A stretch of 64,000 nucleotides of DNA from assembly GCA_026391695.1 (NCBI GenBank), contig JAPLDP010000028.1, positions 1 through 64,000 of the forward strand, written 5' to 3'. The notes below the pieces were generated by a model that saw nothing but the letters and a program-made list of their open reading frames with translations, did no database searches and was not told the DNA's origin. The DNA is from Bacteroidota bacterium (GTDB taxonomy: Bacteria; Bacteroidota; Bacteroidia; Bacteroidales; JAGONC01). The stretch's first letter is position 1; each line of letters starts with the position of its first letter. The translations under genes and the position numbers were made by a program. Shown piece after piece: positions 46,671 through 63,868 of this stretch.

Positions 46671-46865
46671 GCTATTATATCTAAAAATGATATATCTTTA
46701 CGTGGCTTGAATGATATTTAATTCTGAAAATCACCTGGGCATTTAAAACCATTTTAATGATCATTAACTCAATAAAACAACAATCTCTATAACACGCTAC
46801 TCAGTCTCTCCTGTCCACATCCCTAATAGTTTGAAAACAGGACTTTATGAGTAGGTGCTACAAGA
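46671..46865 (+). repeat. 195-bp leader repeat, copy A, upstream of the HEPN gene
   Basis: It aligns over 195 bases with 60721-60915. Shared blocks include GCTATTATAT at the start, TTTTAATGATCATT, ACTCAATAA, CACTCAGTCTCTCCTGTCCAC-type sequence, CCTAATAGT, AACAGGACTTTATGAGT and GGTGCTA. Similarity ends about 45 bp before each ORF. Imperfect -7-like boxes (TATCTTTA here, TAACTTTA in copy B) are at matching places. The rest of the 46539-46670 stretch shows nothing recognisable. Confidence 0.75.
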
Positions 46866-48280: not shown

Positions 48281-49094
48281 TCAGACTGTCTAAAACCCTC
48301 TGCTTTTCAACATCAATTTTGTTTATAATTTATTACGTTTTTTCCCTGTATTTACTGGCGTTTCAACTATTTTTCATGTATGGATTATCCCGATTCGGAA
48401 GATTCTCATCGGGATGACTGAATGTAAACCGGTTTTGCTTCTCTACGTTCGCTCAACAGGCAACATTCAGTACACATACAAAGAAAACCCCGCTCACAGA
48501 TTGTTCTCATCGAATCTTCCCTGGAAGAGAAAATAGAACTGGATAACCCGGTAAGGATTATCGATGCATTTGCCGACAGCTGTAAACTTGAAGAGTTTGG
48601 CTTTACCCATGCAAAGCATGCCCCGGAAGGAAGGCCACCCTATTATCCCGGTGACCTTCTGAAACTCTATATTTACGGATATCTGAACAGAATCCGCTCT
48701 TCAAGATTGCTGGAGAAAGAATGCAAACGCAACCTGGAACTCATGTGGCTTCTCAAGGAACTTACTCCTGATCACAACACCATCGCTAATTTCAGAAGAG
48801 ACAACCCCAAAGCCATCAAATTGGTTTTTCGTAAGATGGTCACCCTGTGCAAACGCCTTGACCTGAGAAGACTTATGTCCATCCTTGGCTTGAATGGCCT
48901 GAAACAGGCTGTTCAAAGCATTTTATCGTTATTAGTTAAGCGTATTCCTGCCATAAAACTTTTTAAAAACCCAATAAGATACGTTGTGAGCTACTTTTCC
49001 CCAAAAACTACGTCATATCATTTTTCTCTGAATATTTGTACCTTTATTCCTTAATCTCAAAACGATGGGGAAGTTATTAGACGGACTGACGTTA
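48281..49094 (+). mobile_element. IS1182-like element, internally deleted, copy 1
   Basis: From TCAGACTGTCTAAAACCC to GACGTTA this block recurs at 63152-63868 in the same orientation. It contains a transposase frame from about 48461 to 49054: VLIESSLEEKIELDNPVRII, RPPYYPGDLLKLYIYGYLNR, SRLLEKECKRNLELMWLLKE, LTPDHNTIANFRRDN are the N-terminal part of IS1182-type transposases; then it jumps to a C-terminal-like RLMSILGLNGLKQAV. The catalytic DDE core is absent, so the element cannot move itself. Confidence 0.8.
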
Positions 49095-49285
49095 AGCGCC
49101 TTTGGATAATAAAATGATAATACGTCTAAACAGATAAATCACACGCAGGCGGCCACTGGTCATAGCCGGAGCCGTTGGCATTTAAAGCAAAACCTATGAT
49201 AACCTAAATCAGTAAATCATTAAAACCACTTTGGAAATATTTTCACCAATTTAATTGAATATCGTAACAATAAAAAAAGAAAAAA

Positions 49286-49720: not shown

Positions 49721-49893
49721 AGACTCACATTTCAAAAACAAAGTGCATTGAAATTTGTAAGTCGAACAACTTAGTGAAGTTATCTCATGAGGCCAAAAGG
49801 CCTAATAATCCCGACAAAGCCTGAGGATATATACCCCGCTGCTCTGCTGCGGAATTTGGGTCCAGGGCTTGCCTTGGGATTCAAAACATTTGG
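49720..49893 (+). ncRNA. Structured repetitive element, copy A (diverged)
   Basis: It aligns with copies at 60493-60699 and 63209-63388: AGACTCA start, TTGTAAGTCGAACAACTTAG, TCTCATGAGGCC, AATAATCCCGACA, a CCGC...GCGG hairpin and a GGGATTCA end. The hairpin reads CCGCTGC-TCT-GCTGCGG where the other copies have CCGCCCC-TT-GGGGCGG, with one C:G pair changed to G:C. Such a compensated change suggests selection on structure, in DNA or RNA. The role is unknown. Confidence 0.65.
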
Positions 49894-60492: not shown

Positions 60493-60699
60493 TAGACTCA
60501 ATTTTCGAAAGCCGAAGGTGCATCAAAAATTGTAAGTCGAACAACTTAGCAAAGCGATCTCATGAGGCCGACAGACCGAATAATCCCGACAGTCGAAAGG
60601 TATAATACACCGCCCTTTGGGGCGGAAAAAGGGGCCGGGGCACCGCTTGAGCGGTATTTCGTAAAACTCAACTTACACCGGGATTCATACCTGTGATTA
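60493..60699 (+). ncRNA. Structured repetitive element, copy B
   Basis: Close to copy C (63209-63388): ACTCAATTTTCGAAAGCCGAA, TTGTAAGTCGAACAACTTAG, GATCTCATGAGGCCGACAG, AATAATCCCGACA, CCGCCCTTTGGGGCGGA, GGGGCCGGG, and the end TTCATACCTGTGATTA. It has about 30 extra bases near the 3' end with a small hairpin (CACCGCTTGAGCGGT). The AT-rich stretch 60356-60492 before it shows nothing recognisable. Confidence 0.7.
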
Positions 60700-60720: not shown

Positions 60721-60915
60721 GCTATTATATGTAAAAACGCTGTAACTTTACATGGATGGAGTATCGTTTAGCTCGGAAAGTTACCAGAACATCCAACGCA
60801 CTTTTAATGATCATTGACTCAATAACAACAGCAATTAATATAACACACCACTCAGTCTCTCCTGTCCACACCCCTAATAGTGTGCAAACAGGACTTTATG
60901 AGTTGGTGCTATAAG
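60721..60915 (+). repeat. 195-bp leader repeat, copy B, upstream of the nuclease gene
   Basis: The partner of 46671-46865, same length. It is followed by GTTAGCA ... TGCTAAC, a 7-bp inverted repeat (60919-60951), before the ATG at 60982. The repeat adjoins structured element copy B on its left. Confidence 0.75.
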
Positions 60916-62208: not shown

Positions 62209-62249
62209 AGTATGAGACGACATAGCCTCGAACCAGTAGTAGCACATGC

Positions 62250-62381
62250 AGCTAACAAAGGATTTATGAAAAAGTGCGTTCATTGCTTAGCCAAACTTTT
62301 GTGCATCTTACTTACTTTCGACAGAGTAGACACGTTGTTGCGTCTAATTCCCCATCTTCATAAATCCTCGGAACGTTAGCT
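62250..62381. other. attC-like recombination site (132 bp) after the nuclease gene
   Basis: AGCTAAC (62250-62256) and GTTAGCT (62375-62381) are exact reverse complements; inside them GATTTATGAA (62261-62270) pairs perfectly with TTCATAAATC (62357-62366), with unequal spacers of 4 and 8 bases. Outer R boxes, inner L boxes, asymmetric spacing and a variable middle of about 85 bases are the layout of integron attC sites. No integrase is in the window. Confidence 0.55.
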
Positions 62382-62415
62382 ACCACCATAAAATAATATT
62401 ATTTCCCTATGTAAT

Positions 62416-63151: not shown

Positions 63152-63868
63152 TCAGTCTGTCTAAAAACCCTCTCCTTTTCAACATCAATTTTGTTTATAA
63201 TTTATTACTGAAACTCAATTTTCGAAAGCCGAAGGCGCATTAAAAATTGTAAGTCGAACAACTTAGCGAAGCGATCTCATGAGGCCGACAGGCCGAATAA
63301 TCCCGACAAAGTCGGAAGGTATAATACTCCGCCCCTTGGGGCGGAAAAAGGGGCCGGGACTTACCCCGCGGTTCATACCTGTGATTACTTCTTTTCCCTG
63401 TATTTACGGGCGTTTTAGCTACTTTTAATGTATGGATTATCCCGATTCGGAAGATTCTCATTGGGATGACTGAATAAAAAACGGTTTTCCTTCTCTACGT
63501 TCGCTCAAACGGCAACATTCAGTACACATACAAGGAAAATCGCGCTCACAGATTGTTCTCATCGAATCTTCCCTGGAAGAGAAAATAGAACTGGATAACC
63601 CGGTAAGGATTATCGATGCACTTCATCGCTCACCTCTATAGGAGACTTATGTCCATCCTTAGCTTGAATGGCTTGAAACAGGCTGTTTAAAACATTTTAT
63701 CGTCATTAGTTAAGCGTATTCCTGCCATAAAACTGTTTAAAACCCAATAAGATACGTCGTGAGCTACTTTTCCCTAAAAAATTACGTCATATCATTTTTC
63801 TCTGAATATTTGTACTTTTATTCCTTAATCTCAAAACGACGGGGAAGTTATTAGACGAACTGGCGTTA
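63152..63868 (+). mobile_element. IS1182-like element, further deleted, copy 2
   Basis: The same left end as copy 1 (TCAGTCTGTCTAAAAACCC), then structured element copy C inserted at 63209, then the transposase start (TCTTCCCTGGAAGAGAAAAT region) which breaks off after ATTATCGATGCA; 21 unrelated bases lead to AGACTTATGTCCATCCTT and the 3' part shared with copy 1 up to GCGTTA. It cannot encode a transposase. Confidence 0.8.
63209..63388 (+). ncRNA. Structured repetitive element, copy C, inserted in IS copy 2
   Basis: The 180 bp are absent at the homologous point of IS copy 1 (after 48336). ATTAC stands on both sides (63204-63208 and 63384-63388), once in the empty site. Foldable parts: GGCCGACAGGCC, CCGAC-AAA-GTCGG and CCGCCCC-TT-GGGGCGG. 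It is either a MITE-like insertion with a 5-bp target duplication or an element inserted after TTAC in the manner of IS200/IS605. No protein is encoded. Confidence 0.8.

Follow-up and report, generated by a model that had tools for sequence, protein, structure and literature searches.

Among described transposase-free elements of the IS200/IS605 type, the closest that we found are PATEs (palindrome-associated transposable elements), known from the haloarchaeon Haloquadratum. These carry palindromes near their termini, lack terminal inverted repeats and do not duplicate their target; some of them arose from IS605-type elements by deletion of the core (PMC3119063). IS608 inserts 3' of TTAC, has subterminal hairpins and uses the lagging-strand template (PMC5934647, PMC6006769). 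Y1 proteins of subclass 1.2, marked by the motif Y---Q--HH, are listed as without REPs and generally occur without IS-like ends or partner repeats (PMC6006769). The element described here resembles PATEs in having no transposase, near-terminal palindromes, no terminal inverted repeats and no target duplication, but it is bacterial, is ~130-205 bp long across the family, joins a swappable left hairpin to a constant right half, and occurs in about 30 families of one order. It is best read as working like a PATE, considering its hairpins, its target, the lack of duplication and its related ends; what sets it apart as new is the exchangeable left end together with the wide distribution.

The window, that is, the whole 64,000-nucleotide stretch that was analysed, lies on contig C28 of a draft genome (G000) that totals 3.63 Mb, and it holds two copies of an IS on its plus strand. 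Both are degenerate and belong to a DUF772-transposase IS: IS copy 1 (48281-49100) retains a remnant of the transposase, and IS copy 2 (63152-63868) is internally deleted; the two align with ~92% identity on either side of a site at which copy 2 carries 180 extra bases. At the corresponding point (48334/48335) copy 1 is continuous and reads TTTATTACGTTTTTTCCC. A third copy just past the window end (C28:65339-65629) is shortened and uninterrupted (TTATTAGTTCTTTCCC, ...ACTTATTAGTTCTTTCCC...). With the site empty in two IS copies and filled in one, the insertion was gained in copy 2, which bears out the preliminary description of a 180-bp interruption of this copy; the counter-reading named there, a simple and precise deletion in IS copy 1, is ruled out by the third copy, which is likewise empty. 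The inserted element spans 63207-63386 of the plus strand (180 bp in the parse without duplication), bears an A-type left hairpin, belongs to subfamily P and is missing from IS copies 1 and 3. The sequence TTTATT is read directly to its left (63201-63206, plus strand), and ATTAC, as had been noticed, flanks the insert on both sides (63204-63208 and 63384-63388). IS copies 2 and 3 (the latter from C28:65339 onwards, locus L200) have an identical internal deletion in the transposase gene, which gives them the look of a shortened, non-autonomous IS derivative that has itself moved.

The family to which the insert belongs is far beyond chance. When this genome is searched by BLAST, the insert finds 25 pieces, the best other copy at E = 4e-77, and the consensus of a second subfamily finds 49; a covariance model built on 15 copies scores 44 matches. 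Across the order, 393 genomes were sampled, and 47 of them (12%), from about 30 families, have matches at E <= 1e-5. Copies are modular, with an exchangeable left half, either the type A hairpin (TGAGACTCAAWTTTT..AAAAWTTGTAAGTCGA) or the type B palindrome (CCTCACCCCC..GGGGGTGAGG), and a right half common to both types (GGTTAAATTCCCCGC..GCGGAATTTGGGTCCAGGGCTTGCCCTGGGGTTCATACCTGTGATT). The right end is GTGATT here and TTCATT in other genomes, several of which (e.g. L212, L062, L070) read GATACC..hairpin..GTTCATT or GCTTCATT. Within the window, three copies with common ends had been reported: GTGATT is kept in the insert and in a second copy (60494-60698, plus strand), which has a longer H4 arm and misses TTTATT on its left, while in the third (49721-49885, plus strand) the right end has decayed. 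A number of copies (L034, L035, L024, L210) are placed immediately after hairpins that look like terminators and carry T runs. On contig C85 of this genome a strong DUF805 RNA (RF03081, 80.9 bits; L006 1176-1243, minus strand) adjoins an element copy. A separate observation concerns a 1.3 kb stretch that includes an element copy and is 99.9% identical between two species (G003:C90, L074, and G004:C26:8584-9868, L152) that differ by ~5-20% elsewhere, suggesting, on this sequence comparison, recent transfer or cross-binning.

The insert is predicted to fold into a series of hairpins, all given here on the plus strand. The left hairpin H1, or module A, occupies 63209-63257 (TGAAACTCAATTTT...AAAAATTGTAAGTCGA) and is followed by an extra stretch of ~40 nt (63260-63300), present in the alignment in only some subfamily P copies, namely the three window copies and C21:129259. 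H2 (63302-63315, CCCGAC..GTCGG) precedes H3, or module C (63329-63344), which is like the left-end hairpin of IS200-type tnpA elements; H4 together with the right end forms module D (63353-63386, TTCATACCTGTGATT), which is common to A- and B-type elements and in other genomes is similar to an IS200-type right end. Covariation in H1 was assessed in an alignment (A3) of 33 type A hairpins from many genomes. Both sides are altered in 13 of 20 pairs and 93% of cells are paired; covariation scores 0.495, where shuffles score 0.163 and slid versions 0.112 at most, and 117 cells show double changes, compared with 34 in shuffles, with slid versions pairing 51% or less. Even the outermost stem, which adjoins a conserved GA/GA internal loop, covaries (ATTCGT/ACGAAT, ATTAAT/ATTAAT, ATCAGT/ACTGAT). 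Very few of the paired cells in H1 are G-U pairs, a scarcity that we read as selection on a DNA hairpin. Hairpins thus lie near both ends, as in IS200/IS605-type elements, with compensatory change in H1 and with H2 and H4 helices present. Folded alone, the window copy is unremarkable (z = -1.5), and the copy at L031 is striking (z = -5.0).

A fixed short sequence marks the left flank: of the 24 A-type copies read in this genome, 19 have TTTATT or TTTAAT immediately before them, as do most B-type copies, and empty sites carry TTTA[T/A/G]T. A flanking motif shared among other copies, as anticipated, is therefore present; the TTAC at the window copy, which had been likened to the IS608 target, does not hold for the family at large, whose target is TTTA[A/T]T. 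Two further filled and empty pairs come from relatives, both with B-type copies. At L080 in G004, GGGTTTAAT precedes the element (AATTGACC..CAGTGATT) and GCAAACAATC follows it, with the site empty in G001 and G003 (GGGTTTATTACAAACAATC / GGGTTTAATACCAATAATC; flank identity 94-95%); at G004:C18:18213, TGTTTAAT and CAATATAA surround the element (AGTAATGACC..TTGATC), and the empty site in G001 reads TGTTTAGTCAATATAA. In both cases the flanks join at TTTA[A/T/G]T without target duplication; beyond short ATT-like letters nothing is doubled, and the position of the cut within TTTAWT is uncertain by ~3 bases. At the window site, ATTAC on both sides leaves a 5-bp duplication possible, one for which other copies give no support. 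Most copies in G004 combine AAT at the left with GTGATT at the right, which does not amount to a duplication. With the window copy excluded, left and right flanks in this genome show no correlation (p = 0.19); a flank permutation pooled over all families gives p near 0, a misleading value that stems from compositional differences among families.

Copies that are neighbours on a contig tend to point the same way (24 of 28 in G000 and G004 taken together, p = 9e-5), a clear orientation bias at the level of the contig. For G004, positive local GC skew coincides with the left-to-right strand in 22 of 25 cases, which drops to 18 of 27 once gene strand is corrected for; the genome of the window itself gives 26 of 44, not significant. 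A tie between the orientation bias and the lagging-strand template is thus only suggested.

The preliminary description had also proposed looking for a TnpA in the genome, and five Y1 transposase genes are present. One, on contig C70 (L026), is of the IS200 type; the other four match the Y---Q--HH motif exactly or nearly. The end hairpins of L026 and of its relatives L228 and L229 resemble H3 and H4 of the element, and when right halves are compared with these ends, the score is reached by 0-1 of 1000 shuffles for several genomes. This likeness to IS200 ends is found in G150, G002, G043 and G004 and at L031 of G000; the right half of the window copy is only weakly like an IS200 right end. Compared with IS608 and IS200, which are served by subclass 1.1 TnpA, the element shares a fixed T-rich left site, hairpins near both ends and an IS200-like right half, but it is geneless, its target is TTTAWT instead of TTAC, and relatives of this genome's IS200-type tnpA occur in only 3 of the 27 other bearing genomes searched. 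In G004, where copies are very alike, the Y1 genes among those read are only of the other, non-IS200 kind. Among the 60 nearest genomes, every one of the nine bearing ones has Y1 genes, but so have 38 of the 51 that are free of the element; the presence of such genes is therefore not discriminating. No autonomous element sharing the full set of ends was found, nor any consistent linkage between element and Y1 gene, the sole locus at which copies of the right half flank a Y1 gene on both sides being L110 of G002. The genes that resemble subclass 1.2 have arrays of short palindromes (GTCCCTACGGGAC, CCCACGACTTTAGTCGTGGG, CCCCGCGCTTTAGCGCGGGG) on their flanks, at L027, L028 and L029 in the window's own genome (C27, C34 and C32) and at L092, L098 and L105 in relatives, although REPs are not recorded for this subclass (PMC6006769).

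We assign a probability of roughly 0.7 to the reading that the insert is a transposase-free IS200/IS605-type element, PATE- or MITE-like, and that a Y1 transposase mobilises it in trans. The element contributes hairpins and no gene, and a Y1 (HUH, single-tyrosine) transposase would be supplied from elsewhere in the genome. The enzyme would recognise the hairpins on one strand and excise the element as single-stranded DNA, which would then be joined 3' of TTTAWT without duplication of the target. The left end is a swappable long hairpin of type A or B, and the constant right half (H3-H4-GTGATT) has the look of IS200 ends fused after loss of the transposase gene. The insertion itself, the family, the covarying hairpin, the target and, at two sites, the missing duplication are observed; we infer both that the mover is a Y1 enzyme and which enzyme it may be. 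Much of the earlier proposal survives here: a protein-less element, probably moved in trans, agrees with a sequence that holds hairpins only and has filled and empty sites, and the suggested kinship with IS608-type elements is supported by the T-rich left target, the absence of duplication at two further empty sites, the end hairpins, the co-orientation and the IS200-like right half. Rather doubtful, to our minds, is the proposal that this is a modular single-strand family, its left hairpin swapped between unrelated types and its right end kept, that serves as substrate of subclass 1.2 Y1 proteins (Y---Q--HH).

The perfect ATTAC repeat at 63204 and 63384, along with ATTAA on both sides of L031, is what a classical MITE would leave if a DDE transposase had made a short target duplication of ~5 bp; we regard this as unlikely, because the element has no clear terminal inverted repeat, the two other filled and empty pairs show no duplication, though both are B-type, and the flanks of other copies are uncorrelated beyond a constant ATT. 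Similarly improbable is a REP- or REPIN-type repeat moved by a RAYT, with H1 as the REP and the modules as a BIME-like mosaic. Such repeats (PMC3116915, PMC6006769) share with the element a palindromic, mosaic make-up, a largely intergenic location and compensatory stem changes, and the long covarying H1, the occurrence of module A alone or in tandem (L216, L222) and an inverted dimer in this genome whose last hairpin, H4, is common to both halves (L032) would all fit. However, the GT[AG]G foot of canonical REPs (PMC6006769) is not found in alignment A3, the element has asymmetric, defined ends and inserts at TTTAWT as a unit of 130-180 bp, and its linkage to a Y1 gene is inconsistent.

The preliminary description had further entertained a protein-less relative of HEARO/omega-RNA elements, which would act by means of an RNA, with IscB or TnpB as the nuclease in trans. 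A link between omega-RNA elements and IS200/IS605 elements is described (PMC9755519), and the insert is structured, mobile and GTGA-like in its end letters; we nevertheless hold this origin to be extremely improbable. With E allowed up to 1, the HEARO covariance model (RF02033) still fails to match the genome, and no Rfam hit lies anywhere in the window. TnpB (PF07282) is absent from the nine bearing genomes, its controls being positive, and no partner nuclease of the IscB kind (PF14239) was found in a search in which no control genome gave a hit either. The very few G-U pairs are those expected for a DNA hairpin, and the GTGA that had brought HEARO to mind is no more than a portion of GTGATT, the end of the element. 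A group II intron remnant was also considered and rejected, the insert being far too short and most copies having no 5' consensus.

As probable transposase-free relatives of IS200/IS605 elements, these copies form a natural record of hairpin-end swapping in single-strand transposition, and the family gives orphan Y1 proteins a tangible substrate on which they can be tried. At 62230-62385, and at L200 near its right end, imperfect inverted repeats surround small orphan genes; their ends (GCTAAC..GTTAGC and GCACAAACG..CCGTTGTGTGC) recall integron attC sites. Finally, the repeated arrangement CTCAGTCTCTCCTGTCCACA..CCCTAATAGT..AAACAGGACTTTATG stands upstream of two unrelated ORFs, at 46800-46855 and 60850-60900.
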